Source of the DNA: Tribonema minus | Lineage: Eukaryota; Sar; Xanthophyceae; Tribonematales; Tribonemataceae | Length of the DNA stretch: 64,000 bases | Direction: 5' to 3' | Assembly (NCBI GenBank): GCA_017506865.1 | Contig: JAFCMP010000522.1 | Location: 434,001 to 498,000 of the forward strand | Part shown: piece after piece, positions 3,539 through 60,526 of the stretch | How positions within the stretch are numbered: the first letter of the stretch is position 1 | Layout: every line of letters begins with the position of its first letter | Notes under the pieces: generated by a model | The model's input: only the letters and a program-made list of their open reading frames with translations | What the model was told of the DNA's origin: nothing | The model's database searches: none | Translations under genes and position numbers: made by a program

Positions 3539-4028
3539 ATGACGCTGCTGGGGCGCGCAAGCCTTGCGCTGGTGGCGGCCGTCATCCTGGCCCGGGGACA
3601 GCTGCGGTGCGTCACTTTTGCTCAGCAGCTGTCACAGTGTGAGGCCGACACAGCCGCGGCGCCCGTGCGCATTGTAGACGCGCTGCAGCTGCAGACGCTT
3701 GCAGCGCAGGAGAACGCCGGCACCATCCAGCTCACCATTGCGGGGCTTGTGCCAGTGGCCGCCACAATTAGAGTGGGCATCAACACCTGCATTTCAGTGG
3801 TTGGGTCCGGCCCCGACACAGATGGCTTCGAAGGTTTCGGTGAGGTGCCGCTATTTCGGGTTCTGGGGGGGCTGTCGCTGAAGGGCCTGGCACTACGCGG
3901 GGGCATGGCTCGTTGGACGCAAGGATTCGGGGTGCCATTCGGCAGGGGTGGCGCCGTTTTCGTCAATGACAAGGGGACACTTGCGCTCGATAATGTGGTG
4001 GTCGAGGGCAACACTGCGGAAGTATCAG
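3539..4028 (+). CDS. Gene A exon 1: signal peptide and start of beta-helix
   Basis: Residues 1-163. The ATG at 3539 is followed by a hydrophobic leader (LASLVAAVI-like core) ending near GQLRC, a good signal peptide. The first Pmp-type motif, GGAVF, appears near residue 141 and FxxN-like VVEGNTA near 153. The donor is TCAG|GTTGGT, phase 1. Confidence 0.85.
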
Positions 4029-7000: not shown

Positions 7001-10000
7001 CTGTACCCAGTGAACTAAGCCGCTCTGCTGTAGAACTCCTGCTGCTCACGCATATCGCGTAGGACAGGCAATCCTGCCCTGTCCACGCTTCCGCCCATTG
7101 ATCACCCAGTGGCGGTGTAGCTGGGGACTTCGTGCTTGTTGTCCCGAGCATGCCCTCCCTCATGGCGAGAGGAGTGCAGCTCCCTCTGCGCTAACCCCAG
7201 GCATCATAACCTGACAGCGCATAGCGCCACCACCGTGCCAGAGGTGGACAACCAAGCAGCCAAGCAGACACAACTCACGAGAGCATGTGTTGCTACAGAA
7301 CGAAGTGATTAGGAACACGATGCGAACCCTGTCTGAAGTGGGCACGTCAGTGCTCACCAAGGACCAACCTCAACATGGGCTGAGCTCTGCTCCATCACTG
7401 TGCATCAGTGCACGCCACTCTGCACCGGCCGAACGTCCGAGAAGAGCTCAGATATATGTCAAGCTGATGTTAAGTGTACTGACTGTGAATGTTGGTGCAC
7501 TGACTGTCGGATGCTGTAGGGTGAGCATCAAAGACGCTCAAAGGTATCTGAGAAGGGACGGGTGACTCACTTTACAATTCTTGTCATAATTCCGTTTTAT
7601 TATGCACGCTTGAAGTGATTAAGGCGCTGCTATGCCCGCTGTAGTGCTCCTGGCTTTACCACTGATTCAGAACTAAAAAGCTTGTGCACACATGGCAGGG
7701 TAGCCGCCCCCTGTTGGGGTGGCAGGATACCGCATCAACTATGGTGCTCCTGGCTTTACTACTGAGCTAGCTAAAAAGCTTGTGCACACTTGGCCGGGTA
7801 GCGTCTCCTTCTGGGTTGCCAGGATACCACACCGCAATGTGAATCATCGGGTTGACTCAGAGGCTAAGATCAAATTGCTGCTGAACACAATGCGCACGCG
7901 TACGGTATGCGGTGCATTCTCCGCTCATCTGTCCAACTCATCTTTTGGCTTGATTCCTCCTTGTTCATCACTGTTTTCTCACCACGCATCTACATGTATG
8001 AACTGGTATGCACATGTCCTAGTAGGTTGCCATCTAGCTACAGCGTGCCGTTAGCTGCGGAAGTAATAGCTGCATGAGCCTCAACCGAACTTGCAATGCT
8101 GACTCGAACCATTGCAGATTTTCAATCTGTTTCCATACATGCTCTCCGGTATACTGTACACATTGAATGTCGGCCACCCGGGCACTGTTTGCCTCGCTAC
8201 GCCTGACACTTCATATCGTATTCCTGCCCCCTGTGTGCCAGGTGGTGCCCTCTACCTCAATCGTGGCAGTAAGACCACTATTCAACGCACCATTTTCACT
8301 GGCGACACTGCTCAAGGCCCTGCGGACACCAAGCATGGCGGCGGCGCGATCTTTCTGGGCTCCCGAGCTCAACTCATCATGTCGGACTCTGAAGTGACGC
8401 GCTGCAAGTCGGACAAGGGCTCTGCCTTCAAGCTCGACCGCTTGTCTGATGCCACATTAACACGTGTGAAGATCTCCTTCAACGCAGGTGAGGCTCGCAG
8501 GTCATTGCCATGGTCCCGGCGGCATCGCGGAGTGTAATTATCGTGCATGTCCTTTATATTGTGATAAACAAGGGCTGCGATTGGTTGTGTGTTTCGAGGC
8601 CAGCTGCTGCTGCAGCAGCTAAGGCCTTACAAAGCAGGGCTGTTGGCACATGTCAAAGAGTTCACGCCCTCGTACTCTTATATCATAAGGCAACATATCA
8701 CGAGCCTCAAGCCAGCTTAATGAAATGCAACGAGCAATAACCTCATTGGTGCTGGCACGCTGAACTGGCAACAATGAGAGTGCGCAGTGGACGGCCATGA
8801 AATAAAGATTACAACAAATTACGCTCTGTGTTGTGTGTGCGAGGCTGGTTACGGGCCACCTGTTGCTGATGCAGCAGCTGTGGACTCTCACAGCTGAAGG
8901 CGTGCCGTTGGCCCATGTTTGAGTCACAGATGCAGACTTGAATATATCATGAGGCCGACCTATGCAACAATCCAACTGTTTGTTTTGGTGGTTGCTGGCA
9001 GGCTACACTGACAACAGCGAGAAAAACCGCGAGGGTGCGCTTTGGACAGCTGGAATGACGAAGCTCACTGACGTGTCATTTGAGTCAAATTTGCACGACA
9101 CTGGTGGGGCCATACAGCTAGTGACGGAGAAGGGCAACTTTAATGAAATCCCATCGTCGTTTGTGGCAGACAACTGCAGGTAAGTTTTTTGGTGCACGGC
9201 ACAAGTACTTTCTAATTTAGTCACTGTAGCATAATTCGGTCGGACAGCAACGCTCACGGTGTGAATAAAAGTGGCTCACTGCGATAGACTAAGGTCCATC
9301 GCACTCAAGGCTGCACATTTCTAATGTTCAGTGCAAAGCATTTGCCACTCAATGCGCTTAGTTTCTTGGTAATCATGCAACAAGGTTAGGCTTATTTTAA
9401 GCTTCTTGTCTATGAAAAAAGTACTTTCTATGTCACCTTAGCGTTGTTGTTTGGGTTGCAACACACTTATTCTTACCTGACCATCGCTGATTCCACAAAA
9501 CATAACGCACATTTTCTTAGAAAGGGAAAAAAAATTCAGTTCACCCGCTGTGCCAATCTTGGTAATGCGTTTCAACGATGCTTCCAGGCCAATTCGAAAG
9601 GCCTTGCTATCAGTGTAGGCGACAGCTGTACCAGTATGGCTCAGTGACACAATATATGTCTATCCTACTCGTCATGAACACAAGCACCATTGCGTTTTTT
9701 TTTCCTGAGAATATCATCCTGATGATCACAATCATGCAGCTGCACTGGTCACGCTGATAGCAGCACACACATCACGTTTGTGCTCCATTTGGTTCTGGCT
9801 TCAAGAAGTTCATGAGGCAGGCTCATAAACACTTTGCACCTTTGAAAAATCCATTGCCACGTGAAGCTGGTGAGTCGATGTACGCGACAATGACGGCTGC
9901 GGTCAGATTGACCACGTGCATCTTTGGACTCTGAGGCAATACAGCCACAGTTTTGGCCGCACTGATGGCCGCACAAGCATATGCATATACAATATTGCAT

Positions 10001-13000
10001 TGTTCTGCGCTCGCTCTCTTTTCTGACTCCCAACATAGGTTCACAACACCTCTGCCACTCGTGGGGAGCCATTGCCATGTACGCGCCAGAGGAGGCTGCG
10101 GCCAGCTTCACCAACTGCGCCAGTCCTGGCAACACGCCACAGTTTCGGCCAAACTGATGGCAGCAACATGAGTTGCGTTGTTTTGTGCTCCCTCTGATCC
10201 TGATTTCTCGATACAGGTGCACACAATAATCTGCCGCCTTCGGGGAGCCGTTGCCATGTACGCGACAAAGCAGGCGGCGGTCAGCTTCACCAACTGCGTC
10301 TTCCGCGGCAACACAGCCACAATTTTGGTCAACTGATTGCAGCTCACACGTTGCATTGTTCTGTGCTCTCTTTGACATGGCTCCTCAATTTGACCACAAA
10401 AACATAAAAGACTCTGCACTCTTTGCAGAGCCATCCCATAAGGCAACACAGAAGGCTGTGGTCAGCTTCCCGATATGCGCTTTTTGCGGCAGTACAGCCA
10501 CTGTCACAGTGGCAGCCGCAGATTCGGTCACACTGATTGCAGCACACGCACTGCATTCGTTGTGCTGTCTTTGGTTCTGACTCAAATCCAGGTTCATAGA
10601 GAACTCTGCTAGATTAGGGGGAGCCATCGCAATGTACGCGACGGAGAAGGCTGCGGTCAGCTTCACCAACTGCGTCTTTCGCGGGAATACTGCCACGGGC
10701 GCCAGCGGTGAGTGCATTGCTGTGACACGCCACTCTGCAGTAGGCTGGCTGAGGGTTCTCAAGAGCAGATACTAACACTTGTGAGCCAACAAGCTACAGT
10801 TACTGTGCTGTCAAGAGGCAAGCTGCATTTTCGAATCGTCTTTGCATCTTAATGCAGCTGGGTCAAAAGTCCGTCAGGCCACTAGGTGCTTCAGAATGTG
10901 CACACACCGGCAATGTGTGTGGGGGGCTCAGGGTAATGCTGGCGCTGGTGCTGCGACAGAAAAGCTCTATACAGCTTCTGGCTATTTGCGGAAGCGACTG
11001 CTCTGCAGTGGCTACACTGCCTTTGAGTTGGGTTGTATGATGCAAGCTTGCTCTTTTCTGACGAGTTTCGCAAAGTCGCATAGCTGCCCTGACAATCATT
11101 GGCTATTGCCTCCACCCATTGCAGGTCGCTGCCATATGTTTCTTGTGAAGAAGCCGTCTAGTCCCTTATACACGTCTTCAGCTGTCTATTTATACTGCCA
11201 CTGAGCTGTCCGCATATACTTCAGTTTTCAATATGGCGGACGAGCCCCGCTGGAAATTACAATGCAGGTGTAGTGAGGCAACCCTAGGTGGAGCAGTAGT
11301 TAAAGTAGGGCATGAATTGCGAATGCCTTCTGCGCTATATAAGACATGCAGGGGGCGATTGCAGTGAGGCAACCCTAGGTGGAGCAGGCGTTGAAGTAGG
11401 GTTTGAATTGCAGCAGAAGTGGCGGGAGTATTGGGCGGCGCATACGCTTCACGAGCAGCAGCGCCTTTGTGAGCAGCAGGCGCATTATGAGGCGGTGCAC
11501 GGAGGGCGCACAAGCAAGTGCAAGCGTGGCGCTGGCGTGCAGCCGTCAGACACATCAGCAGCGGATGTGTGCAGCGGCGCACGCACATGTGCAACTGTGT
11601 CGTCCAGCAGTAACTAGGCTGTTCACAGCACGTATTGTGCTGATATTTGAGACACGAATGGCGTCAGCTCTTTTTTGTGCCATGTGTCTTGCCAGTGCAA
11701 CTTGAGCATTTCGGTTCATGGGCGCTTGCAGCCCGCACGCACAAGTGCAGCTGTGTCGTCCGGCAGCGATCAGGCTGTTTATAGCACATATTGTGCTGAT
11801 ATTTGTGAGACACAGATGGCAGCAGCTCTTTTTTGCGCCATGTGTCTTGCCAGTGCATCTTGAGCACTTTGGTTCAAAGGCGCATTCAGCGCTGTCTATC
11901 GCATGTGGCAGCGCTCAGCAAGCTGTGCGTGCACCATGGTAGGGGGTGTTTGCAGGTTCAGTGTTGAGCCTGTACGTTTAGACACCACACCGCTGGCATC
12001 ATATCAGCAGTGTAGTGTCTGGGGGCGATTGTCGTACAGGTCATGATGCGCTGCAATGACCACCTGGGTGCACAAACCCACCCGCCCACCCTTTCGTTTC
12101 AGTTGTACATAGGCACTTCTTCTGCAAGTGTTACACAAGCACTGGGGGCGGGGAACAAGTGCGCAGTGCTAACATGTCGGGGGCGTACATACTATAGTAG
12201 CAGTAGAATGGAGGCGCGCTTGCTTGCGTTGGTTGCGCAGTGCCAACATGTCGGGGGTGCGTACAGCAGCGGAGCAGATTGCTTGCTTCCAAGTTTGTCT
12301 GCGACAACAGTAGGATATAGTATTGTTTGCAACAACGCACTGCAGCTGCCTAGGTGCTACTCTAGCCAGATGCATCGCAGTTTTTCTGGGACTTGGCGGT
12401 CACGGTGTTGGAGATTTAGTTGTATATGCCATGCGCCCGTGTTCTTTAAGAGTTGCGGTAGCAGAGGGAATCAGATGCTGTGCTTGCACTTCGTAGCAAT
12501 ATTGCATGTGTAGTATGTAGGGCGCCTCACATGAGTGCATGGTTTTCAACGTGCGGAGTAGAAGAGCCATGCAGGGGGCGATTGTAGTGAGACAACCCTA
12601 GGTGGAGCAGGAGTTGAGGTGGGGTTTGAATTGCGAATGCCTTTTGTCCTGTAAAAGACATCTGACACCATGACCTCCTGACACGACTTTTTCACTGCCT
12701 TGGCTGCTGGCATTGCTTCCATTTCACATGGGCTTGCACACAGTACATGGGCGTGTGGAACTGAGGTCTCAGGAGTGCTGAGGTGTGTATTAAACTAGCA
12801 GTAAATCATGTACACAGCAGTGAGGCAACTCATGCTCAATATGTGACCACCTGGGTGCACACAGGCTCTTGCGTGCTGTTGTTGCCAGTCTCAGGGCAGA
12901 GTTACAAGGCCGGCAAGGAGACGGGGTCTGCAGGGACACAGACCTCGTGTCCACGCTGCTCACGTGCTGTTGCCGCCTGCAATTAAAGCAGCGTGATGCA

Positions 13001-40000: not shown

Positions 40001-43000
40001 CTCAAGTGTCGGAACCCTATGGACGCATGAAACCTGTAGCATGTGCACCTTGGCTGCTTGTGCGGCGCCCGTTTCAGTGTTCCACTGGCCTGCTAGCATG
40101 TCGGCATCTGGCTGCTGGCCCAAGTAACTGGGAGTGGATGCTTGTCACAAATGTGCATGGTCAGGTTCCATCCCCAGCAAACCTACACCTGAACCGCGAG
40201 GGCCCTCGCTGCTGTCCCTACTGCCTCTGCGACTGCTGTAGCCTGCTGCTGCCACTGACAAGTGTGATGCCCTATGCAGAATAACGATATTGATGTAATG
40301 TTCATCGTTCTCGCATGCGGCGCAGAAATGCCCATCTCTCACGTGCACATGAACTCAACCGCTAGCTGACATGTCTGATCGTGGTGTAATTAAGGAGTGG
40401 AAGGCAGTAGCTGCATAAGCCTGGGCCGATCTCACACCACACAACCTTCAGGGCATAACCGCCCTTTGCATTTATTTCCGGACCAACTAAGTAAATCATA
40501 ACATGAAATTATATGTCAATCATAACCTACAATTAAATATCGCATCATTGTGCCCATTTCCCGCTGTACATGCTGCTGCCACGCCACTGACTTTTTTGTT
40601 GACTTTTTTGTTTTCGCGCCTGCAGGGAGGTGGTGGAGTGCGTGCGTCGCCTGCTGCTCACCGGTGTGCTGGTCTTCATCTGGCCAGGCAAGTGCACACA
40701 TGTAGAACAACCTGACAAGCCTTACACAAGCATACGCGTTGCACGTGGTATGTGTGTCATAGTTTCATGTGGTGTATGTGTCATGGTTTTGTAGGATTTC
40801 CGCCACTGAGTAAGTGAAAATCATACATGCACACCTGAAGTGACACCAGTAACTCAACTAAGAGAGCTTGCACTGGTATGTGTTGGGCATTTCTGCAGGT
40901 CGCATGTTGCATAGATCTTGGCTGTAAAAGTGAGAAAAAAAAATGGGGGGTTCAAGATGACCTGGATTGGCCCGGCGGTGGCTGGCGGCCACTCTGAAGA
41001 TCTCAGCTTGCAGCTGCATTTGGATGTACATAAAATAGACATAAGTTTTGCTCTTTACCATTAGCGAACAAGGAGGAATCAATGGCTGGTGACCACTCAC
41101 ATAGGCGACCTACTACTCTAACTGCCTCCTGCTTTGCACATACTTAGTTCCACTATAGAGACAGACATGCTTCGGGCCCCCAATATGGCTGTCGTACTCT
41201 TGCGTTGTTGTGTCAACAGCACATGCTGCCACTGTGCTGCACCTAATGCAATGGAACATGATGGCTGCGCGTGTGGGCCGCCCAACCTAGGCTTTCTGCT
41301 GTGTACCTTCATCACAGCCACATCTCATTTCGTTTCACATCTCATTTGTTTCTTTGACGCATCAATCAACACATGCAGCTTTGTACTGTTGCGGCAGCCC
41401 AAAAAAGTCTTCGACCACACGGCATAGCTTTGACTTGAAAGAGCTGCAGCTGCCTACAGAAGAAAAGCCGCACCAAGACACCGAAGCGCTTGCCATGGAT
41501 GAGCATGGGATGCGGTGGCTGTGCTCTAGGGCCGTGCAGCCCAGCGTTGATGCACTGCTAGTTGTTGACGCGCATTTCACATGTTGAGGTGTCATGGCTG
41601 CGCTGGTAACCCATGTCATTCAGGCAGCAAACAATGTGCGTGGTGCTGTTTGCGTAACAAACTTGCCCGTCCCTCCGGCAAATCCGAGTCGCTGATCGGG
41701 CAGTATCCCTTGCTCAAGAACCCAGTGCTTAGTGATACTTTGGCATTGTTGTTGGATGTCCGCTGCAGCATGTGGACAAAGAAGTCGCTGCCACTGCGGT
41801 GCGCGACTTACATTTTTTCACACAAAGTCTTCTGATGCATATTGTTGTCTGCATTGGGGGAGCGTTGCTTGCGGGCAATTGCAGCCAGGCCCGCCTCTCA
41901 ACAGCTGCCAGCGCGGTGCCCCATGGCGTCAGCTGAGACAGCCTGCACATTTGCGCGAGTTGAAGTTGAAATTCATGCGGCGTACATAAGTTACATAGAA
42001 GTAGAAGATTGTACAAATGACAAGGTTCTGCCCACAAGTGCAAGTGCACAAAACGCATGCCGGCGCAGGGGCGGCCGTTATCCACTCAGTGACACGCAAG
42101 CTGGCAGTTGAGTTTGTGGCGGGCATGTTTATGCATGCAGCATGTTCACCCCCATACGAGAATGTCAGCGTGTACGTGCAGTCAAAGATGGCTGACCACA
42201 TCACTTTAGACTCTTTTGTGTGCCGCCGCTGCCACCTAATGAACGCACGCCGCAGGTTTGGTTCTCACAGTCTATCTATCGCAGTTGCTGATCGCCGCTT
42301 CCAGAACATGCTTGACGCAAAGGTCGCTGATTGTTGCAGATTCATGTATCTGTATGTCTGCGGGATCTCAACATTGCTCGCCATCGATGTCAACCTGCAC
42401 GCATGCATGAAGACACTTGACTGTGATGTCCGGTGGTGCCGCTGCCGAAACATCACCGTGTTTTCAGGCTCAGCTTGTACTTGCTGTCCATCCACGCCTG
42501 CGTCTTCGCATACTTCAGCATGATTGTCTACTGTACGTGCCTCACCTCAACGTCCTGTGTCGCCGCAGCCGCTGCTCCAACTCATGTTGCAGGCTTATAC
42601 TCGCAGCTCAGGCACGCCTGCGTCTTCGCGTGCTTTGCCATCTTGGTCTACCTGCACGCGTATTGAAAGTATGCTCCCTCGATGCTATGTGCCGCCGCTG
42701 CTGCTTCATCAACGCGCGTTGCAGGCTCGTACTCGCAGTCCATCTACGCGTGCATCTTCGCGTACTTTGCCATCATCGTCTACCTGCGCACGCAGCCGCA
42801 CGCCCACCGCGCAGACGGCGCCCTGTACCTGCTCGGCGCCACTTCCGTGTTCCTGAACCCCATGGCTGCATTGGCCATGGAGGGTCTGAGTTGGGATGGG
42901 GCGGATATCGGCGCGCAGCAGCAGGTCCTGTCGTGTCTCCTGATCATCATCACTATGGTAAGTGCCAAGCAATCGAATGCTGAAGAGCAATATAGAGGTG

Positions 43001-45431
43001 TCTATCGGTACTTTAACCCTAAAGGAGAGCTCCTCATTATACTGGATGCACATATGTATGGCGCGCAGCAGCAGGCCCATATCGTGTATCCCGATCATCA
43101 TCACTTTGGTAAGGGCGGAATAGAGTACCATGGCTTACCAGAGCAGTCAGTGTTCTGAAGCTGAATGTCGCCACGACATCACACCGGATACTCATTGCAC
43201 GATGCGCAGCAGCAGGTCTCGTTGTGGCTCCTGATCGCCATCACCGTGGTGCAGGCCGAAGTGACCGATTACTACCCAAGGATACCCTGTCTAGAGCATC
43301 GTATCAAACCATACATATGCTTGTGCACGAGTCAACCGCGCGGACGGCGCCCTGTACCTGCTCAACGCCACTTCCGTGTTCCTGAATCATATGACTGCGT
43401 TGGCTATGGAGGGCTGAGCTGGGATGGGGCCGGTGTAGGCGTGCAGCAGCAGGTCCTGTCGTGTCCCTTGATCGTCATCACCGTGGGGAGCGCCGAGTCC
43501 TAGAGCCCTATACAGGTCTTGTAGATGTACTCGTATTCATGAGTTTCTGGTCCCGAAGGAAAGAGCCTCATTACAGTGTACACACATATGTATGGCGCGC
43601 AGCAGCAGGCCCGTATTGTGTCTCCTGATCGTCATCACCGTGGTGAGGGCCGAGCAATCGAATACTACAAGAGTATTACAGAGGTATTTACAAGTACTTT
43701 GACAAGTACCTCAACCCTGAAGAACAGTTTTTCATTATACTGGATGCACATTGCTTAGCGCGCAGCTGCAGGTCCTGTCATGCCTCTTTTTTGTCATCAC
43801 CGTGGTAAACGCCAAGCACTTGAGTACCACAGCAGAAGTATCAAAGCGGTGGTAGTCGGTATTGTGCCTGAGAATGTCATCACACTGTCAGGCCGGATGC
43901 ACGTGTGCACGGCGCGCAGCCAGGTCCTGTTGTGCCTCCTGATCGTCATCACAGTGGCAAGCGCCAAGCGATTGAGTACCACAGCAGCAGTATCACAGCG
44001 GTATTAACCAGTGTCGCAGCCCAGAACGTCATCACATCATCACTACGGATACACATGTGCACGGCGCGTAGCAGCAGGTCTGGTGCTGTCATCACTGTGG
44101 TGAGAACCATTTAGTTCAGTACCACAGCAGAAGTATATAACCGCAAACTACCATGTTTGTCAGTGTTGGAAGGCAAAACGTCATCATATAGCACACAATC
44201 TCATGGCGCGCAGCAGCAGGTCCTGTCGTGTCTCCTGGTCGTCATCACCGTGGTAAGGGCTGAGCAACTGAGTACCGCAGCAGAAGTGTTTAGCGGAATC
44301 CTAAGGATCCTCTCCGCTTATCCGCGACTCTGAAAGCCAAGAAGCAACAAGTTGTCCAGTAGTGAAGTGTCCAGGGCAGAGCTGGAAGTTGGGTTATGCG
44401 GAGCGGATCCTGAAGGCTGTGGCTGTACACATGAGGCCAAACACGCCGGCTTGATCTTAAGGCAGCACTACACGCCCATGCTGATGATCAACGTGCTACT
44501 CTGTGTGAGGCTGCTACAAAGTGACACTACGAACCTATCATGGGTCAACAGAGATGGCAGCAGCTGAGGCAGCTGTAAGCTATCTGATATCGCCTGAATG
44601 TCCCCGCTGTGCTGTGCGCTTGAGTACTCCCGACACAAATACGCGCAGCAGCCTACAACGTTGCTTCAAAAGAGCGCTGCTGGCGGTCGGCGACTGTAGA
44701 ACAATTGAACTGTTTCAAACCGGCACTGACGCAGCTTGGAGTTCACCCACGCGTAACAAGCTAAGGGCTTAAATAGGGGCAAGACCTAGTGATGTACAGC
44801 TCGTAACGCCCACTTTGTGACCTGTCAAGTTGATCATCAGGGCAAGAGGGCTGATCTCGTCCTTCTATGTCTATTGTCTCCCTGCACCTGCCGCACGCCA
44901 CACCACAACGCGCCCGCACGCCGTGTTTCATATTACAGAGGGATTCTACCCCCATAGACATCAACCACAAGCTACAGTCCTTACATGGTCACGCTTTTAC
45001 TCGTAGCCAATCGGGGCTGACCCGACCGTAATTTTTCTATGAAATACCCAATCTTACGACTGTACCTTCACCTGGAACAGGTCCTCCTGGTGGGAGCCCT
45101 GGCGCAAGCCGTGCTCGTGGCGATCACCATGGCCCGACCCGGCGGCCCCCCTCTGCAACACCCCCCCGAAGACTCCCTGCCAGGCTTTGATGGTCCGCGG
45201 CGCAAGTTCTCCGAGCCCGGGATGCCCAGCTTCAAGGCCGCCAGCCATGCACTCAGCAAGAGGTACAACTCCGTGAAGAGCGTTGTGCTGCCGCCGCAGC
45301 CGGAGGCGGATGCGCACCCGCGGCGTAACAGCGCGGGGGGCAACGCGGGGGGGGCTCCTTCTGAGCACAACTTGAACATGACCGTGTGGCGTCGCCCATC
45401 GGTACAGGCTGAGCCTGGTCCTGGAATGTGA
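3539..45431 (+). CDS. Gene A: beta-helix (Pmp-repeat) multi-pass membrane protein, 14 exons
   Basis: Exons: 3539-4028, 8242-8487, 9002-9179, 10592-10707, 14765-14914, 16507-16927, 18360-18637, 20773-20999, 29570-29657, 30628-30686 joined to 36688-36936 (exon 10, split by a LINE), 38867-39204, 40626-40687, 42725-42957, 45081-45431. Lengths sum to 3,486 bases, 1,161 aa, with matching phases at every join. Residues 1-20 are a signal peptide. About 130-530 form a right-handed beta-helix with GGA and FxxN repeats like chlamydial polymorphic outer membrane proteins. About 535-680 is a Cys-rich EGF-like neck (GPYCAVCKKGY). About eight membrane helices follow, including the WEVVECVRRLLLTG signature, then a Ser/Pro/Arg-rich tail. 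Similar ectodomain plus multi-pass proteins are known from algae and other protists; the role (adhesion or sensing) is inferred. With the LINE in place, translation would stop two codons after residue 751, so this allele is probably disrupted. Confidence 0.85.
4272..7377. mobile_element. Foldback element with 1.5 kb inverted arms
   Basis: The left arm (4272 to about 5790) and right arm (about 5915-7377) are near-perfect inverted copies separated by about 125 bp of short tandem repeats (units with CACACCGACGTGCTGGT). Both outer and inner arm ends carry the same motif, CATGTTGAGGTTGG on the left and its reverse complement on the right. Inside the arms is a tandem unit of about 63 bp (GTCTCTTCCGGGGGACGTTA), three copies on the left and two on the right. 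No transposase and no convincing target-site duplication are visible. The open frames in the arms look like repeat-driven frames. It is probably a non-autonomous foldback or MITE-like element, or a large inverted duplication. Confidence 0.8.
5790..5915. repeat. Tandem-repeat spacer of the foldback element
   Basis: Alternating GTGCTGGTCACACCGAC and GTGCTCACCACACCGAC units of about 19 bp form the loop between the inverted arms. An extra copy of the arm-end motif (CCAACCTCAACATG) sits at about 5870-5884. Confidence 0.75.
7644..7835 (+). repeat. Two-copy 100 bp tandem duplication
   Basis: Both units start GTGCTCCTGGCTTTAC and contain AAAAAGCTTGTGCACAC and a GGTAGC then GGATACC pair. Period is 100 bp with moderate divergence. 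It lies in intron 1 of gene A and has no apparent coding role. Confidence 0.75.
8242..8487 (+). CDS. Gene A exon 2: beta-helix repeats
   Basis: Residues 164-245. Joining to exon 1 restores SGGALYLNRG. A second motif, GGGAIFL, follows about 30 residues later and the exon ends SFNA. The donor is GCAG|GTGAGG, phase 1. Beta-helix coils are read from the GGA spacing of 25-35 residues. Confidence 0.85.
8488..9001 (+). repeat. Gene A intron 2 with a two-copy repeat
   Basis: A segment beginning near 8571 (ATTGGTTGTGTGTTTCGAGG) is echoed from about 8821 (TGTTGTGTGTGCGAGGC), period about 250 bp. Both copies run through a GCTGxTGCAGCAGCT core and a TTGGCxCATGT motif. The second copy ends just before the acceptor of exon 3. 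Confidence 0.55.
9002..9179 (+). CDS. Gene A exon 3: beta-helix repeats
   Basis: Residues 246-304. It contains REGALWTAG, VSFESN and GGAIQLV and ends ADNC. The donor is TGCAG|GTAAGT, phase 2, and the split Arg codon is completed by exon 4. Confidence 0.85.
9748..10591 (+). repeat. Four decayed tandem copies of the exon 4 acceptor region (intron 3)
   Basis: Units of 180-200 bp each contain a copy of the polypyrimidine region (TTTGGTTCTGACTC), the CAG acceptor and the first two thirds of exon 4. The anchor GTCAGCTTCACCAACTGCG is at 9902 (decayed), 10102, 10280, 10461 (decayed) and 10656 in the real exon. Each copy breaks off after GCCAC, before the true exon end, and carries stop codons or lost splice signals. 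The final unit runs into exon 4. Confidence 0.85.
10592..10707 (+). CDS. Gene A exon 4: one beta-helix coil
   Basis: Residues 305-343. It reads FIENSARLGGAIAMY, then VSFTNCVFRGNTATG, a textbook Pmp-type coil. The acceptor is AATCCAG and the donor AGCG|GTGAGT, phase 1. Only this last member of the tandem array continues correctly to a donor. Confidence 0.85.
10708..14764 (+). repeat. Gene A intron 4: several families of local repeats
   Basis: A 4.1 kb intron. A unit with CAACCCTAGGTGGAGCAG occurs at 11262, 11345 and 12568. A unit of about 156 bp with GTGTCGTCC and TTTTTTGxGCCATGTGTCTT is repeated at 11580-11735 and 11736-11890. A 73 bp pair with AACATGTCGGGGG lies at 12164 and 12237. Decayed copies of the exon 5 acceptor region lie near 13200-13370 (CTTTGCTGCAG then AGGCGCCTGTCGCC) and about 14520-14640. 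No other coding exon fits the splice phases here. Confidence 0.6.
14765..14914 (+). CDS. Gene A exon 5: beta-helix repeats
   Basis: Residues 344-393. It reads GVAIYSDKEAPVTMVD, then WFIANTAVASGGAVSV and ends FVGNT. The acceptor is CACTGCAG, the donor ACAG|GTGAGT, phase 1. The donor-side sequence GTGAGTTGACGCTGCTGCGC is repeated about 118 bp downstream. Confidence 0.85.
14915..16506 (+). repeat. Gene A intron 5 with exon-edge copies at both ends
   Basis: Just after exon 5 the donor-flanking sequence is duplicated (14915 and about 15033, shared core GCTGCTGCGCAATGTGA). Ahead of exon 6, decayed copies of its acceptor and first codons lie at about 16060-16100, 16231-16272 and 16386-16430, all with AGCTGAGGGGCGGGGTGGCG or a degraded form, period about 158 bp and then about 110 bp to the exon. 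Nothing else coding was recognised between about 15070 and 16000. Confidence 0.8.
16507..16927 (+). CDS. Gene A exon 6: main block of beta-helix coils
   Basis: Residues 394-533. It contains four successive motif pairs: GRGGALEL/VQFDNNQA, QGGAMVL/CTFTNNYA, GGGGAIKA/SLFEGNSA and PGGAVLQ/NEFKDNAA, then CCNIGGYGSTDW. This is the clearest evidence for the Pmp-type right-handed beta-helix. The donor is CATCAG|GTAAGC, phase 2. Confidence 0.9.
16928..18359 (+). repeat. Gene A intron 6 with a decayed copy of the exon 7 acceptor region
   Basis: A 1.4 kb intron. A segment at about 18106-18230, starting GAGTGCGCAAGCAA, is a diverged copy of 18290-18410, which spans the exon 7 acceptor and its first codons. 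The long open frame at 17481-18074 lacks composition or motifs of the real exons and has no phase-compatible splice sites that I could find. Confidence 0.6.
18360..18637 (+). CDS. Gene A exon 7: Cys-rich neck
   Basis: Residues 534-626. Cysteines are dense: CGDCRSCCQKG, CVTCD and PCWNADACIGG, with the motif LRKGWWRGN before them. The pattern of a GWWR-like stretch, a C..GG stretch and DGHEGP is typical of the module that links beta-helix ectodomains to multi-pass regions in protist surface proteins. The acceptor is TCACAAG, the donor CCAT|GTAAGT, phase 1. Confidence 0.85.
18638..20772 (+). repeat. Gene A intron 7: four decayed copies of the exon 8 acceptor region
   Basis: Copies of the acceptor plus the first 50-60 coding bases of exon 8 lie at about 20071-20140 (most decayed), 20284-20350, 20430-20490 and 20593-20653, ahead of the real exon at 20773. 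The shared core is CTGCAGACTGCxCTGTCTGC, then TTCATAGG. Periods are about 150-200 bp. Each copy has lost the continuation into the membrane helix. The first half (18638-20000) shows no recognisable feature. Confidence 0.85.
20773..20999 (+). CDS. Gene A exon 8: EGF-like end and first membrane helix
   Basis: Residues 627-702. The join restores EGPYCAVCKKGYTSF, an EGF-like Cys pattern, followed by CYPC and a strongly hydrophobic helix (ILAVLVLVLLLVLVAILASG), then a polar segment. The donor is ATG|GTGAGA, phase 0. Confidence 0.9.
22168..22179 (+). repeat. Target-site duplication, left copy
   Basis: GTACATATTGAG, identical to 29007-29018. It flanks the OTU-type LINE. Confidence 0.85.
22180..29006 (+). 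mobile_element. OTU-type LINE (non-LTR retrotransposon with restriction-like endonuclease)
   Basis: A 6.8 kb element bounded by an exact 12 bp duplication, in the same orientation as gene A. One frame is open from 22179 through 28928, nearly the whole length, leaving only about 80 bp of 3' UTR. The frame carries an OTU-like cysteine protease domain, Cys/His zinc motifs, a reverse transcriptase and a C-terminal CCHC plus restriction-like endonuclease. No poly-A tail is visible. Clean ends and an intact frame suggest recent insertion. Family placement is inferred: an early-branching LINE group with RLE (CRE, R2, NeSL, Utopia or Dualen-like). Confidence 0.85.
22410..28928 (+). CDS. LINE polyprotein: OTU protease, zinc fingers, RT, restriction-like endonuclease
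   Basis: 2,172 aa counted from the first in-frame ATG at 22410; the frame is open upstream to the element edge, so the true start may differ. The OTU domain is at about 305-515, with GNGNCLIHTALHG (Cys near 321) and the general-base His in VGHFELLV near 508. Zinc-type clusters are RCPLC near 560 and CALTSPCHTC near 700. The RT spans about 1140-1470: GLDGLRYEH, RPIACSSVWRR, motif A LDCENAFNSVDR, motif B GCQQGDPLGPLYF, motif C FLDD. Near 1949 is CPWRC with H and C, followed by the endonuclease core with RADTVIDP and VLDTSVRAP (about 2010-2040). OTU proteases are known in some LINEs; their role there is not settled. Confidence 0.85.
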   Translation: MGVLPGESRASDSGATMSSNDRVPSTPGSAAAAVAAGAQSSECPRDPTGSHWQGLLGAAGALARRVRALALAPNRARVTVLCAWPTGTKLEPCCTSRRLHAPATQTLLGRTPCAPLVNQMHDLTVTFSLLSLREEGNDLAAVFDQLSLREPVVARSPRQPAGKHGESDVTQAGDNSTHATMTETASATAMVASGKRSRRRGKHRRRTQERQAQCDNSPAPLGQLAPATTPPRGGASAPSAPISGPAKVTTATVATRIPSTVCHTVTVEEQQDALAKATNYGVSTWHTGLQALHKQALGENTATLARGGELRPVSNVGNGNCLIHTALHGIGSVAVEHGLPAPALVIAMREALLDGMVAYVTQGAGKQGASMSSMRQLTAHAAAQPASTREQFDTYGTRARCLAIEYGTNETDSKDSGHTLLLQRLQEEGVWGRPLGLSVWAIVAAVYAVSVTVWQAKPQATGSTQKSTGLVLAQLMGLPAVFAPATPAQPDCHLDVLWTPPGLYTNVGHFELLVAPAAPPPLPTTMTASATTQADSTHITAPSRTQPRTALQLPQRPEPLRCPLCTLAFWQLGQKEDSKQRGKLSAASRMAPVVAHFNGGSCTRSMLNPEASTSHCQQNPAAAYAKGIRQQVDHDPSGDRAPSGSSTCSTGAHHAKHVQEMSTMYGCTAEDFLRAVRKLSACTGACGLVHMSASAGQRQCALTSPCHTCRRNGSAPTRARPAVPPGQSEGGGAGSDGAAAAAGAAAATPPKLPAVPASGAANSKSSKKRPAATATGAQRRRRTAAAAAPPSSAGSRTQSDSLRLQDSSPPHGTAVGWADMDVDPPDDAASPPPPTTTTSGRPSKPQARASLAWDLSTPSVVHALDQTNEADLLLLRFTTTANPFRTQLQCTQWARLVEHATRLLADTTDSAREAARVRLHHGAGAFAHQVSQTLVQRGYRLLHLLAAMAFGRQPEGTGMPPAARLAALLSGDFAELLRKTLSAAAALRAPKPNNAAMASAQTNFDADWTEADSRQQTACAALSGKRRGVGLAAARLEAREACAPADEVTAQVLAAKHPETGTRPGVVDTPMEQVRGLVRDARRHCLHSAGVATTTGPAGSGSPVFESGQAHDHSDRPEDAASAAGRRLEVEAADILSTLSAAGAGKAGGLDGLRYEHLLMAAGPGAPVKAATRPVSSASPGLAGDSESDVMEPAFAHQLAKVFTTLLVEPELLPEQSQRLLRAAALSGIGQKRRPIACSSVWRRLLGSTAARSVKGKISGLLASMSQFGVGYRSGVEHVAARARVWHELYGTTIQLDCENAFNSVDRAAIVRGLMLFCPELLPHFESVYCGDTAPEMRVEVNGEARIICSHLGCQQGDPLGPLYFAVAAAFLLFYPDGVNATPGSMPAYGHSTAEPPAPHCAFLDDLNVLQAAYFDDAAAAGVAEVIRRLAAGGLRVRPDKSLAIAMRGTVFDEAARARLRALDIPFVDTTMPESSQGFTSVGVPVGHQAYVHAAMSKHLVDAGTWRLSWQLAGMARHHLQAAQFILRRSLTKRMGFLARVVDTALSETWLHAFDGFCAWTLERMLHLHGCSTAAAMKSHLLAACTAGDNEEASSGSVLVLPRLGPPELTDIAVPLRASRLPERRGGLGMPLLGLLAPAAYTAQACTTLRPAIIHATVAAGALRLGTDEHGAVTWFAQHSCAIREDQGLPPIIEAVRRSTRALTADGGEKSRTAVAEQLPASLLRWAADTTAAASTLPTAVQAIYAATAVTETVTTEPAPHTHGIVPGAEAAAAAATVPGPQAAAAAAPSTPAKTQTSAEESSCSGGQEDDDDDWEAYADEICRKVVPRRRRGHFTHGLQAGLSNVLRRQYEDCLVEDLEAASAGAVGKPTQAAPIGDLRDTSRRRQQASARVLAQLRSQRASGAMAWMSVPPTANDRPGAAPMSSMAAATMILIAIFIDGWGIQGEVCPWRCSDVSPTSTHAISCPSQHIRGHNATHTAQKRCLQRILRQHHVSIVRNEDASVFKVPGYRADTVIDPGCLHFSSAYRNKGIVLDTSVRAPTASSYLTGKTNASNTDGYAAGVGEDAKVKHHTGTLTSSWAFVPFVQESYGRLGKQTSLFVKELAMHSALCSGGGKADVLRKAGLAKRQILIELSMSLARELAERVMAYTRGARMLGCVAAPVSKLLGHSAD
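29007..29018 (+). repeat. Target-site duplication, right copy
   Basis: GTACATATTGAG, identical to 22168-22179. Confidence 0.85.
29570..29657 (+). CDS. Gene A exon 9: first intracellular or linker segment
   Basis: Residues 703-731. It reads VGAVFIRILRALRIPVVVLQ and ends AAITG after joining. It is amphipathic and basic, consistent with the loop after the first helix. The acceptor is ATGCTGCAG, the donor ACCG|GTAAGC, phase 1. Frame and phase match exons 8 and 10. Confidence 0.75.
29658..30627 (+). other. Gene A intron 9
   Basis: A 970 bp intron. It holds the decayed exon 10 copy at about 30165-30300. Otherwise no feature is seen. Confidence 0.65.
30211..30300 (+). pseudogene. Decayed duplicate of exon 10 with an empty LINE site
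   Basis: Preceded by a copy of the exon 10 acceptor (CTTGTCCTCCGCGCAG), it resembles the start of exon 10 (CCCCGAGGCATATGCCAA) but has a stop and a frameshift. At 30272-30284 it reads CAACTTTGACTTC without interruption, exactly the position where the functional exon is split by a 6 kb LINE. It is both an exon-edge duplicate and a record of the pre-insertion state. Confidence 0.8.
30628..30686 (+). CDS. Gene A exon 10, part 1 (before the LINE)
   Basis: Residues 732-751: FPEAYAKFLAFADFINF preceded by GAT. The acceptor is CCGAGCAG. It stops at the LINE insertion point; in the unoccupied state it would continue directly into the sequence at 36688. Confidence 0.85.
30680..30686 (+). repeat. Target-site duplication of LINE B, left copy
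   Basis: CAACTTC, identical to 36681-36687. Part of it could be the 3' end of the element, since the related copy at 47531-50939 also continues ATATACAACTT. Confidence 0.6.
30820..32418 (+). CDS. LINE B ORF1: alanine-rich coiled-coil nucleic-acid-binding protein
   Basis: 532 aa from the first in-frame ATG inside the element; the frame is open further upstream to the insertion border. A compact N-terminal region (to about 120) precedes a Cys cluster, CPSCLRRHFTRPGQQC, near 126. Long Ala/Pro-rich stretches surround a predicted coiled coil at about 239-332 (EQRIQQLQGG, then VKALTKLLAASEAGKRAAE). The C-terminus is Arg/Ser-rich (RSCSRGRSRCRR near 423). The layout fits a LINE ORF1 protein that binds the RNA template. 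The assignment rests on position and features, not on a recognised family. Confidence 0.6.
   Translation: MSAPVTVTVRGAPAAWSAAQLAMLLAPALAAPGMPIAPVRLRAGGGGTSAAFLLLASALKTCGVGINGAASSAAPASAASPGAAGVWELTVVRGVARRLAHSVLCAVDGTEVALRLLGPDNLTACPSCLRRHFTRPGQQCRATRCAHTTLPAACTTPAAATGTAAGAPAVATAAAAAAAAAATQRAPTGAAASHPPAPAATGAAATDAAAASTPALASASPGASPPPPAADADPAQLGQEQRIQQLQGGILEGRTARKGLQQQVKALTKLLAASEAGKRAAEADRDRSLAEQVRAERLAAQQRSLREGEQVRNAAATARLEAQLTAEAARAASVAVPAADAAGAVATTPVAGDLEASSAAAGAAAAVAADGATAAGAAAAGAAAAGAPPPAVGAASAAAAAAASAAADLAVALEAAAAPRQPPRSCSRGRSRCRRASSPAARHGSDCSASPSRSRQPPMPASDSSALMSDSGTPRASRKRTAAERTPGSAAEPPAARPARGLPQGQSAADRFLSTSTAQPPAPEGGGGASGL
32452..36618 (+). CDS. LINE B ORF2: reverse transcriptase with restriction-like endonuclease
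   Basis: 1,388 aa, starting 33 bp after the ORF1 stop. N-terminal Cys/His clusters lie near 51-105 (CPLYDTGC, later HQRREH) and 142-165 (CASCGEPGC, HQRDH). The RT spans about 445-760: GPSGLRNSHLQQC, RPIACGDTIRRLF near 528, motif A AIDGSNAFNALSR near 588, motif B GVQQGDPLGPLLFAL near 649, motif C YLDD near 684. A CCHC knuckle, CPKCHRPVDSGAHLRRC, is near 1136. The endonuclease core follows (FNKFMDIVFGS, then FEVACCIDVTIRD, near 1195-1250). It nicks target DNA and primes reverse transcription by analogy with R2-type elements. The frame is uninterrupted. Confidence 0.88.
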   Translation: MMSDSYSGGAAPAAIAAAAAAAAAAAAGIDPTQPEAVQAPAQPATAAIYPRCPLYDTGCLFRVPVPKPRLRRNGEANTLTAQTSASLALARRIATTLADHQRREHPNVPADFLARMQAVDDECLTLHRAGAGTYYAVEPELLLCACASCGEPGCVRTKLHQRDHLYKSRGAAATQRPHGPRVAPLPPILSLSTASGGARGPGARAAAAVAAAGPTWRSALPLWTLAPLSPARAALDDLSFDYVLQQQLVVGRCIRLEHRSDFTAALTATLAGLREAQTAVAQAHGVEAAAQASATAGAWCKLLHLLPCLLLVPDGSLPRAHRFAAFVAGDLDLLTRTALAFCRRGAARAGTRRARSMTEAAAAVRERAAATARQPGGVGRAARLLAEGADTSAPRDSATLHKLQAKHPAGDASAKLDAAASRARSLVAAAALAAPAPLNCASFTADGLREAILAANPGSAAGPSGLRNSHLQQCVRHTAHTSGRTVDWLLELLAWLGTAVYSTPAALPAPFWRLHAAARLSAVGEKARPIACGDTIRRLFARTFCTDTRDRVSALLEPIGQFGVGARGGAERVALMAQLTHECGGVLLAIDGSNAFNALSRSAVLTAVAEHLPGLYGYVEHIYGPGRAPWLQFGLDGHADAAIILSQQGVQQGDPLGPLLFALALRGTMVAARAKFPQLALPGYLDDLTIMTPSCDAPVLGHVGRAFCFIQRALSELNIQVNVTKCAALVPASGGARERAAAVFAAANVPVPVCDDGITLMGVPVGTEGFVRAQVAATLRAPGTDRLVAELVQMEDVQAAFSILRLAVPARAGHVSRNTAPSLTHEELRRFDAITLAAVAALAQEPSAGLTPPAHQRAPAAGDDCRGPPAVSAAAAPPSLWAAAVAWVRGADWGGEAPVTLPAHQQVRVHLRLGSGGFGVLGAAPRACAAFAARSLECMGPALAAFPVAARSRVLEHARYGFTFTQIATCLQQLRSGSDEAAAALALLLPTVWYQDWRQDDGAWRALRDLLQRAGGAAGPGMRTRAGARRAAAPAVAREPGSAQAPPAAVLPRRQAALSRVLDAALAATQLRRLEAANALEAVAAWRSGASKGAMGFLAQLPSTDPAETMSPPEFRETLRRHLGVERPAPAAARCPKCHRPVDSGAHLRRCTQGLNVTRHNLLADALFQLLKQVAHLRGLDRDTLAPFRRYAARHGFNKFMDIVFGSNQVCLPVPKVQPSADAVAAGRCTKLRGGFEVACCIDVTIRDSSCPSRLRQAQGGARDVQRVLESASQEKIDTYVVSGALDPTTHTLFSAAFDHFGAMSRDTQALLHALAEQSSQGSYNLAQRVAFWRRRTSLALQRALTRVVIDNWNAVIAPDGDVSAYRRIALLQVPRPSPASAEPPAPP
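36681..36687 (+). repeat. Target-site duplication of LINE B, right copy
   Basis: CAACTTC, matching 30680-30686. Confidence 0.6.
36688..36936 (+). CDS. Gene A exon 10, part 2 (after the LINE)
   Basis: Residues 752-834. It begins DFTILLSPGCLVNFNYYDKL, then a helix (AITLAPLGVLALLGLAYML), a basic loop (SRARGRQGRLYS) and another helix (MLALSFSFLIFSTTSTVVF). The donor is TTCCAG|GTGCGT, phase 0. Length and phase agree with part 1 only if the LINE and one target copy are removed. Confidence 0.88.
36937..38866 (+). repeat. Gene A intron 10: copies of exon 10's end and exon 11's start
   Basis: On the donor side, two decayed copies of the last 110-130 bp of exon 10 plus donor lie at about 37153-37290 and 37330-37470 (GGGCAxxCTGCTGGCxCTGTC-like core, encoding ALSF). 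On the acceptor side, three copies of the exon 11 acceptor and first 50-60 bp lie at 38231-38290, 38431-38500 and 38665-38735 (core TGCGATGACAACCTGGA), spaced 200-235 bp and leading to the real exon at 38867. Between 37500 and 38220 nothing is recognised. Confidence 0.85.
38867..39204 (+). CDS. Gene A exon 11: Cys loop, membrane helix and cytoplasmic loop
   Basis: Residues 835-946. It reads TFACDDNLERQ, SYLYADYSVECY, then helix SFVLVYPVGIPLTYFVLLRR, then a Ser-rich cytoplasmic loop and YKRDAYYW. The D/C/H pattern before the PVGIPL helix is characteristic of this protist multi-pass family. The donor is TATTG|GTACGT, phase 2. Confidence 0.9.
39205..40625 (+). other. Gene A intron 11
   Basis: A 1.4 kb intron. 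It contains an AT-rich two-copy 76 bp tandem repeat (39668-39819) and nothing else recognisable. A region near 40060-40120 resembles 30500-30560 at low identity and may be a dispersed repeat. Confidence 0.6.
39668..39819 (+). repeat. AT-rich 76 bp tandem duplication
   Basis: Two almost identical units (39668-39743 and 39744-39819) starting ACATAAATGTGAAATGAATT. Very AT-rich compared with everything else in the window. The near identity suggests a recent duplication. Confidence 0.9.
40626..40687 (+). CDS. Gene A exon 12: WEVVE membrane signature
   Basis: Residues 947-967. Joined to exon 11 it reads WEVVECVRRLLLTGVLVFIW. This W-E-x-V-E, R-R and L-L-x-T-G pattern is a recurrent signature of the multi-pass part of these proteins. 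The donor is CCAG|GCAAGT, a GC-AG intron, phase 1; only this choice restores WPGSYSQ with exon 13. Confidence 0.88.
40688..42724 (+). repeat. Gene A intron 12 (GC-AG) with copies of the exon 13 acceptor region
   Basis: Decayed copies of the exon 13 acceptor plus its first 60-70 coding bases lie at about 42252, 42337, 42465-42535 and 42589-42664, ahead of the real exon at 42725. The shared core is TCCAxCxACGCCTGCGTCTTCGC-like. The rest (40688-42240) shows no recognisable feature. Confidence 0.8.
42725..42957 (+). CDS. Gene A exon 13: two membrane helices
   Basis: Residues 968-1045. It reads SYSQSIYACIFAYFAIIVYL, a polar loop with HAHRADGALY, helix LLGATSVFLNPMAALAM, then QQQVLSCLLIIITM. The donor is ATG|GTAAGT, phase 0. 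Confidence 0.9.
42958..45080 (+). repeat. Gene A intron 13: eight tandem copies of the exon 13 donor region
   Basis: Copies of the last 50-60 bp of exon 13 plus its donor lie at 43061, 43201, 43438, 43594, 43758, 43911, 44063 and 44203, period about 150 bp. The core is GCGCGCAGCAGCAGGTCCTG, then ATCATCATCAC-like. The copy at 43330-43495 is longer and includes most of exon 13. Several keep a plausible donor (GTGGTAAG). The last, 44203-44260, is the least decayed. Nothing recognisable lies from 44300 to 45080. Confidence 0.88.
45081..45431 (+). CDS. Gene A exon 14: last helix and cytoplasmic tail
   Basis: Residues 1046-1161. Helix VLLVGALAQAVLVAITM continues from exon 13, then a long polar tail rich in Pro, Ser and Arg (PGFDGPRRKFSEPG, VLPPQPEADAHPRRNSAGG), ending PGPGM and TGA. 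The acceptor is GGAACAG, phase 0. Confidence 0.9.
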   Translation, partial: VLLVGALAQAVLVAITMARPGGPPLQHPPEDSLPGFDGPRRKFSEPGMPSFKAASHALSKRYNSVKSVVLPPQPEADAHPRRNSAGGNAGGAPSEHNLNMTVWRRPSVQAEPGPGM

Positions 45432-45780
45432 GGAATAATAGCTTGGGGGGCGCCATGCGGGGCAGGCGGCGCCTGCTGAGCACTATGAAGTTGTGTGGCG
45501 CGCGCCCATGTGTAGGATAGCGCGACCCTAAAGCAAAAGAAACAACAGCCCGGGGGGGCGAGGCGGGGGGGCCGCCCCCAGGCTGAGCACACCGTAATCG
45601 TGTGGCGTGCGCCCAACCGTACAACGCTGTCCTGAACTCAGTCTGTGAGGAGTAGCAGCCTGGGGGGGGCGGCGCAGGGGGGCGGAGCCGCCTCCGGCTA
45701 AGCACAGCGCGACGGTGTTTGCGGCATTGAGTGCAGACGCATTCGTAAGGCGCACCGGTGTGCACGGTATTCGTACAGCG
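45432..45780 (+). repeat. Decayed tandem copies of the gene A coding end
   Basis: Two to three diverged copies of the segment 45356-45450 (last codons, stop and following GGGGGGCG-rich sequence) follow the stop codon at a period of about 120 bp, recognised by GCTGAGCAC, then GTGTGGCGxGCGCCCA, then a G-rich run. They probably form the 3' UTR or lie just beyond it. Confidence 0.75.
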
Positions 45781-50500: not shown

Positions 50501-50939
50501 GGTGGGAGTTGCGCAGCCCAAAAGGACCGGCAGCCGAGCCAGGGTTGGCGGCGAGGATGGCCTCACATAGCCCGTCCGCCGTGAACGAAGTGTAGTTGAG
50601 TGGTGCCGGTGCTGCCAGCGCCGCCGCTGTCACCGGGCTGCGCGCCCGCGATGCCGCGGCGTCTAGCGTTGCAGCCGCATCGCCGGCTGGGTGTTTAGCC
50701 TGCAGTTTATGCAAGGTAGCGGAGTCACGGGGGGCAGATGCCACAGTGTGTCAGCACCCTCCGCCAGCAGCCGCGCGGCGTGCCCGATACCGCCCGGCTG
50801 CCGGGCCGTCGCCGCCGCACGCTCCCGCACTGCTGCCGCCGCCTCCGCTGCAGTCCTGGCGCGGCGCGCGCACGCACGGGCGGCGCCGCGGCGGCAGAAG
50901 GCCAGCGCTGTGCGCGTGAGCAGCTCCAGGTTGCCTGCC
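47531..50939 (-). mobile_element. LINE B copy 2, 5'-truncated and broken
   Basis: Reverse-complement copy of 33432-36680 of LINE B: the C-terminal two thirds of ORF2 plus the 3' UTR. It ends at GACATCATATA like copy 1. The 5' truncation is typical of incomplete reverse transcription. A possible 5 bp duplication, GTTGT, lies at 47527-47531 (overlapping the border) and 50940-50944. It is old enough to carry many indels but remains clearly similar. Confidence 0.9.
47594..50939 (-). pseudogene. Broken ORF2 fragment of LINE B copy 2
   Basis: The reading frame is carried in pieces on different frames. It still shows motif A (AIDGSNAFNALSR), motif B (GVQQGVPLGPLLFAL, with Asp replaced by Val), the YLDD region shifted into another frame, and endonuclease sequences with FNKFMDIIFGSNQVC. 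I count at least six frame breaks. It cannot make a working protein. Confidence 0.85.
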
Positions 50940-60520: not shown

Positions 60521-60526
60521 TGAACT

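Follow-up and report, generated by a model that had tools for sequence, protein, structure and literature searches.

How does a gene come to carry, within its introns, repeated pieces of its own exons, and can such pieces account for long introns? This question is raised by a 42 kb gene in a 64,000-nucleotide stretch (the window) of the 158 Mb genome of the xanthophyte alga Tribonema minus (contig JAFCMP010000522.1, positions 434,001 to 498,000). The gene model was assembled from open frames and splice borders. A first reading of this DNA, made from the letters alone (the original prediction), had the gene essentially right, with its 14 exons, although it gave the product 1,161 aa rather than 1,188 aa. 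It proposed that the introns next to exons 4, 5, 6, 7, 8, 10, 11, and 13 contain two to eight diverged tandem copies of a segment spanning the splice site, acceptor copies lying before an exon and donor copies after it. The analysis confirmed that exon-edge copies in this gene are real and that they extend beyond it; they probably result from frequent short tandem duplication.

Within the window gene, 20 intron and 70 exon bases from each of 25 edges were compared with at most 3 kb of the neighbouring intron, every edge having 100 shuffles as its control. Copies were found at 10 edges, nine of them clear and one weak (the exon 3 acceptor). A BLAST comparison of the window with itself showed local direct repeats at the places originally named. 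Exons 4, 5, 6, 8, 10, 11, and 13 kept their place on the list, with the expected number of copies except that exon 5 has one. Exon 7 dropped out under the shuffle controls (acceptor 26, donor 24; on retesting, the corrected acceptor scored 29.5 against a shuffle maximum of 24.5 and the donor 23.5 against 25, again without support). The exon 5 donor (32, shuffle maximum 26) was below the threshold of the edge search, and the donors of exons 1 and 9, tested outside the 25-edge set, both scored 19, under their shuffle maxima. As had been described, each array has its working exon at the end that adjoins the remainder of that exon, and the same pattern continues past the stop codon of exon 14.

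The copies are also sided. At a score of at least 36, splice edges matched their own intron in 8 of 26 cases, the wrong side of the exon in 1 of 24, non-adjacent introns in 0 of 288, and, when reverse-complemented, nothing (0/26). The sole wrong-side match came from the exon 4 donor query; since exon 4 is 116 nt long and its acceptor copies extend 88–90 nt into it, this query overlaps the copied part of a short exon.

The original prediction concerned one gene, but edge copies occur in unrelated genes of this genome. The starting clue was a genome search for chaperonins (PF00118) and kinesins (PF00225), which showed partial extra matches to the same profile segment beside some exons. The survey covered 20 regions, 11 of them for ten chaperonin loci and 9 for kinesin loci; 17 regions gave 45 in-frame introns, with 90 edges. 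With 60 dinucleotide shuffles per edge, 30 of the 90 reached p < 0.001. At a score of at least 30, 27 of the 90 edges had a match in their own intron, against 12 matches in 3,736 comparisons with introns of other loci; the controls gave 0/40 for the wrong side of the exon, 0/90 for reverse-complemented edges, and 3/90 for exon interiors. The enrichment of edge similarity in flanking introns, for which a genome-wide test had been proposed, was therefore found in the sampled genes. Of the 17 loci whose introns were modelled, spread over many contigs, 14 had copies at this score. The 90 edges include two that were misplaced onto copies (L017 donor 5054 and L025 acceptor 6721) and that, once corrected, also have copies; the L025 acceptor is 3 bases off in the copy-anatomy and cluster counts below and exact in both codon-position ratios. 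A second batch of four kinesin regions had copies at 8 of 18 edges, five exon pairs being omitted because their profile positions were non-contiguous and several of the splice models being low-scoring.

The anatomy of the copies was determined at 114 edges, including those of the window gene and leaving out the second batch, with exon queries of at most 110 nt. Copies were carried by 32 of these edges, 80 in all and 1 to 8 beside each working edge. Their exon part has a median of 52 nt (5–95% range 22–110, the upper value being the query length), and the median spacing between copies is 143.5 bp. Tandem Repeats Finder (TRF) gave 32 rows with a period of at least 50 bp, some overlapping, in 207,723 bases of gene regions; all had periods of 60–182 bp, with no rows at 200–500 bp and none in shuffled sequence. 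In the alignments, the splice site sits within the copied unit, and the copies are partial exons running into intron sequence. These intron parts are themselves homologous within arrays: 42 of 70 pairs exceeded the 99th percentile of 1,000 unrelated pairs. The splice dinucleotides were retained as AG in 27 of 33 copies and as GT or GC in 30 of 33.

The explanation that best fits these observations, with a probability of about 80%, is frequent short tandem duplication, which shows at exon edges because an intact exon can still be spliced from the outermost splice site. A genome-wide process would keep creating short tandem duplications in and beside genes, with units of 60–182 bp where these are visible to TRF. 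Where a unit ran across the border of an exon, one of the two resulting splice sites would remain joined to the intact exon, so that little harm would be done, and the other copy would land inside the intron and then decay. Repeated rounds would build an array with the working exon at the edge nearest the rest of the exon, and the intron would lengthen. Such a process would still be running, most of its duplications would be neutral, none would need to be aimed at splice sites, and its molecular cause may be slippage during replication or the repair of flaps or forks. Introns with copies are indeed longer (median 778 bp, n = 24) than those without (474 bp, n = 21; p = 0.001), a comparison to be read with the caveat that longer introns give more room for copies, and repeat content increases with intron length (Spearman 0.41). 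The idea of intron growth by repeated duplication across splice boundaries is thus borne out in that the units hold both exon and intron sequence and copy-bearing introns are longer; its emphasis on the boundary is not (see below). Among loci L017–L036, repeat content ranged from 0.00 (L019) to 0.49 (L020) of windows.

Several observations weigh against this explanation. The splice sites are retained in 57 of 66 cases, slightly more than the 0.77 predicted from overall identity (p = 0.04), although alignment through the splice site biases toward retained sites. Identity is around 0.85 over the first 40 exon bases versus 0.72 dropping to 0.60 in the intron part (measured 10–40 bases from the splice site, where unrelated units give around 0.5), and this gap exceeds what the model would lead one to expect from codon position 3. 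A few copies have an almost perfect exon part beside an intron part that can no longer be recognised, such as the one at 3892 in L034 (identities of 1.00 and 0.55), and are poorly explained. Copy detection favours a good exon part with a decayed intron part, and this procedure, together with indels, would account for some of the fast decay of the intron parts; tandem duplication may also be supplemented by local gene conversion or by copies that were pasted in. Age differences along arrays are weak (0.887 for the nearest copies and 0.848 for the farthest, p = 0.07, the direction being as expected in 12 of 19). Moreover, a comparison within L048/L049 and L050/L051 gave no sign of present activity: it revealed a single indel of at least 20 bp, which partially matches its neighbour and whose intronic location is not established. 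These pairs (contigs C90 and C179) are collinear homologous segments, around 95% and 89% identical, and represent a duplicated region or else haplotypes that have diverged. Finally, repeat clusters touch an edge in 17 of 28 cases versus 7.8 expected (45 introns, a random 140-bp unit, and present-day lengths), an excess that shorter ancestral introns or the easier detection of exon parts could explain.

That excess is also an argument for a different view, in which duplications, rather than being random along introns, are directed to splice junctions, for instance by a process that is co-transcriptional or linked to R-loops or the spliceosome. Some clusters scored as interior, moreover, end a few bases from an acceptor (L023 4382–4555, L026 2639–2861, and L031 3270–3527). 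However, when 80-nt windows were slid along the loci, a local copy was found for 0.33–0.42 of those centred on an edge, for 0.15–0.47 of those in intron interiors, and for no more than 0.11 of those in exons at least 80 nt from an edge. Since intron interiors match about as often as edges do, the introns as a whole are repetitive, and arrays lying wholly within introns occur. Chance alone, with a 140-bp unit and an ancestral intron of 300 bp, would make around 64% of random duplications span an edge. Nor are the copies confined to splice junctions: the stop codon of exon 14 was copied likewise, and 2 of 14 stop edges elsewhere (a set that excludes L008, L041, L042, and the window stop, which was tested separately) scored at least 30. 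With the window stop included, the count is 3/15 versus 35/108 for splice edges, a difference that is not significant (p = 0.39). Targeting is therefore not needed and rather unlikely, and the notion of the boundary as special, which the original prediction implied, is not supported. Edges as special targets were set aside as unnecessary after the sliding-window test and the stop-codon copy, though the cluster count still leaves room for them.

Another possibility is templated insertion, whereby exon fragments would be pasted in or gene-converted rather than duplicated in tandem. This would suit those copies that match only the exon part plus 5–8 donor bases, and those arrays in which a far copy is the best match (L034 3892 and window position 44205). 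Yet the spacing is regular, TRF arrays of 60–182 bp exist, the depth reached into the exon is similar within several arrays, and the intron parts are homologous in the 42 pairs mentioned above, which makes insertion quite improbable as the general source. Insertion of exon sequence alone was not favoured after the test for intron-part homology.

What becomes of the copies once tandem duplication has made them? A use for them, as alternative or mutually exclusive exon ends or as decoy splice sites regulating splicing, might be suggested by the retention of AG and GT, by the better preservation of exon parts than of intron parts, and by an excess of differences at third codon positions, which is a signature of selection. 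Working exons and copies differ at 98 of 1,218 first and second positions and at 110 of 608 third positions (0.080 vs. 0.181), a ratio of 0.44 (95% confidence interval 0.31–0.65; 35 copies, 14 arrays). Between copies, the differences number 142 of 1,179 and 122 of 594, a ratio of 0.59 (0.39–0.80). This set omits 11 of 45 copies for indels (two of these being the whole of the short exon 6 array) and includes one added; with all 46 copies of 15 arrays, the ratios are 0.54 (0.37–0.74) and 0.73 (0.55–0.86), and the reading is the same. A free copy of a constrained exon should give around 0.5 against that exon and 0.5–1 against other copies, whereas two free sequences should give 1 and two strongly constrained ones far less. 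The ratios therefore fit free copies of a constrained exon. Furthermore, 39 of the 80 copies are frameshifted in their exon part, and the copies cover only part of an exon and continue into the intron; complete, in-frame copies, as in mutually exclusive exons, were not what the 80 copies provided. An incomplete segment added to a chaperonin would probably disrupt its fold. With these ratios and frameshifts, the copies look like frozen, decaying records of exons and not like spare exons, and any use of them is improbable. Purifying selection on the copies had been suspected from the third-position excess in the exon 8 copies and became unneeded after the codon-position and frameshift tests.

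Simple repeats do occur in introns, but chance similarity or low complexity, which would make the copies no commoner than random intron similarity, is contradicted by the shuffle, other-locus, wrong-side, and reverse-complement controls, and an assembly duplication is unlikely because most copies have diverged by 3–25%, many with indels, so that this whole class of explanation has a negligible probability.

Arrays of this kind have a counterpart in birds. Hron et al. (2026, Genome Biol Evol; PMC12954441) described 'sequence stuttering' in the chicken, that is, imperfect tandem repeats in introns; they report stuttering with a lateral exon part and splice site in 236 introns of 115 genes, 190 of the 236 being on dot chromosomes, with 3.4% of dot introns affected, a median exon part of 36 bp, and intron lengths that differ greatly between birds. 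They also mention gerbil genes as data not shown (PMC12954441).

The alga arrays look like a widespread version of this exon stuttering, with the same anatomy. In both, introns hold imperfect blocks in tandem that range from tens to hundreds of bases; in the alga, these are seen in the 32 TRF rows and in the repeat clusters inside modelled introns. Some of the blocks in both cases repeat the outer part of an exon, together with its donor or acceptor, along the intron next to it (in the alga, rarely elsewhere, as the 27/90, 12/3,736, and 0/40 above indicate), and the coding exons stay intact, the frame of the window gene being open over 1,188 aa and exon interiors rarely matched. The exon parts are of similar size, with the reservation that the alga's 52 nt was measured with the limited query length. 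The two differ in extent, since around one-third of tested splice edges are affected in the alga, in unrelated housekeeping genes, and the alga belongs to a distant lineage. They also differ in that variation between individuals is a main feature in the chicken, whereas the alga is known from one genome, and in that the linkage to GC content is weak in the alga (intron GC against repeat fraction, Spearman 0.31, p = 0.04) compared with the GC-rich dot chromosomes. No account of such exon-edge arrays in algae was found in the literature, chiefly that outside subscription papers.

Other known systems resemble the arrays less closely. In intron gain by tandem genomic duplication, a new intron is made from exon sequence. 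There too, intron structure is shaped by genic DNA duplicated in tandem, but the alga copies lie in existing introns, which lengthen; one reported case of such intron gain is that of potato RdRp (PMC4974935). Introner elements are dispersed mobile elements that create introns, and they share with the arrays a genome-wide effect on algal intron sequence. The alga copies, however, are local, as the few edge matches in introns of other loci indicate, and a mutual comparison of the 45 introns of the sampled loci yielded only three cross-locus pairs, all with one L036 intron. Expansion of minisatellites or simple tandem repeats likewise gives head-to-tail repeats with drift, but the alga arrays have few copies, their unit is unique local exon plus intron, and they are side-specific at exon borders.

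A broader interpretation, to be held tentatively and given somewhat less than even odds, is that a general eukaryotic mutational process, known so far from avian dot chromosomes (and from gerbil genes as data not shown), runs across the genome of this alga, where it would be a main builder of introns and would supply spare splice sites and dated series of exons. The same picture in an alga as in a few bird chromosomes suggests a wider mechanism. If this is true, each exon is flanked by a dated series of its own earlier states, documented by the frozen copies. The old question of how introns grow and why they differ in length could be approached through physical traces of duplication, which around one-third of the tested splice edges bear; as these traces are found in ordinary housekeeping genes, rate, unit size, edge bias, and the effect on splicing become measurable. 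Duplicated splice sites are, in addition, raw material for alternative splicing and can confuse gene prediction.

Do the arrays then explain the length of the window gene, as had been proposed? They do so only to a small extent. Its introns total 38,326 bases, of which the recognisable edge arrays make up around 4.6 kb (12%, summed by hand). Intron 9 alone has 15,257 bases, and much of it is occupied by two long open reading frames (ORFs; 22179–28928 and 32419–36618) with reverse-transcriptase matches (7.3e-7, just below the Pfam cut-off, and 3.8e-8); since intron 9 carries these ORFs, the edge arrays are not the main cause of the 42 kb. Intron 1 contains an inverted repeat of around 2.2 kb (4272–6511 and 5203–7377, 88%, in the self-BLAST) with internal tandem repeats, which is probably a mobile element. 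Downstream of the gene, 47522–50939 on the minus strand is an inverted stretch related to 33432–36689 and 88% identical to it.

Table 1. The window gene and the repeats in and around it (positions in the window)
Feature	Position	Strand	Details
Host gene	3539..45431	+	14 exons, 1,188 aa; open spliced frame, GT-AG (one GC-AG); stop codon 45429-45431
Exons 1-7	3539-4028, 8242-8487, 9002-9179, 10592-10707, 14765-14914, 16507-16927, 18345-18637	+	
Exons 8-14	20773-20999, 21218-21398, 36656-36936, 38867-39204, 40626-40687, 42725-42957, 45081-45431	+	
Exon 3 acceptor copy, weak (possible)	8747..8779	+	score 34, shuffle maximum 28; borderline
Exon 4 acceptor array	9878..10591	+	4 copies: 9878-9906, 10021-10106, 10211-10285, 10428-10466; self-BLAST, edge search
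Intron 4 repeats away from exon edges	11269..12661	+	11269-11411 with 12565-12661; 11570-11892
Exon 5 acceptor copy	13259..13344	+	1 copy, 1.5 kb upstream; 80% identity, score 78.5, shuffle maximum 28
Exon 6 acceptor array	16224..16506	+	2 copies: 16224-16262, 16382-16423; self-BLAST, edge search
Exon 8 acceptor array	20061..20772	+	4 copies: 20061-20135, 20286-20342, 20427-20488, 20594-20653; self-BLAST, edge search, alignment
Exon 10 donor array	36937..37482	+	2 copies: 37230-37293, 37402-37482; self-BLAST, edge search
Exon 11 acceptor array	38218..38866	+	3 copies: 38218-38294, 38421-38492, 38657-38723; self-BLAST, edge search, alignment
Intron 11 interior tandem duplication, young	39666..39823	+	76-bp; 97% identical; away from edge
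Exon 13 acceptor array	42451..42724	+	2 copies: 42451-42531, 42578-42659; self-BLAST, edge search, alignment
Exon 13 donor array	42958..44267	+	8 copies; self-BLAST, edge search; six copies aligned
Exon 13 donor copies 1-4	43057-43116, 43204-43250, 43416-43497, 43591-43662	+	
Exon 13 donor copies 5-8	43758-43823, 43910-43975, 44062-44109, 44205-44267	+	
Exon 14 last codons and stop, copy downstream of gene	45584..45667	+	1 copy; 79% identity, score 53, shuffle maximum 34

The product of the window gene has N-terminal Pfam matches to Beta_helix (right-handed; 1.3e-16) and Chlam_PMP (PMP repeat; 3.5e-9), followed, when read by eye, by a Cys-rich part and then a hydrophobic C-terminal part. The Cys-rich part has a large family of relatives on many contigs, with 96 exon matches including its own, most at around 30–55% identity. 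Elsewhere in the genome, light-harvesting proteins (LHC) and PsbO are encoded; their closest PDB matches, together with the end of the 18S sequence, suggest a photosynthetic, stramenopile-like alga whose plastid is of the red lineage, while a further LHC fragment had no PDB match. Around the gene, the window contains six minus-strand ORFs between 52.1 and 59.9 kb with no Pfam matches or sub-threshold ones, five to six telomere-like AGGGTT units at 739–772, an 18-bp unit repeated 5.2 times with 97% identity at 54974–55067, and, at 60525–61238, a dense, diverged tandem array with periods of around 23 and 62 bp.

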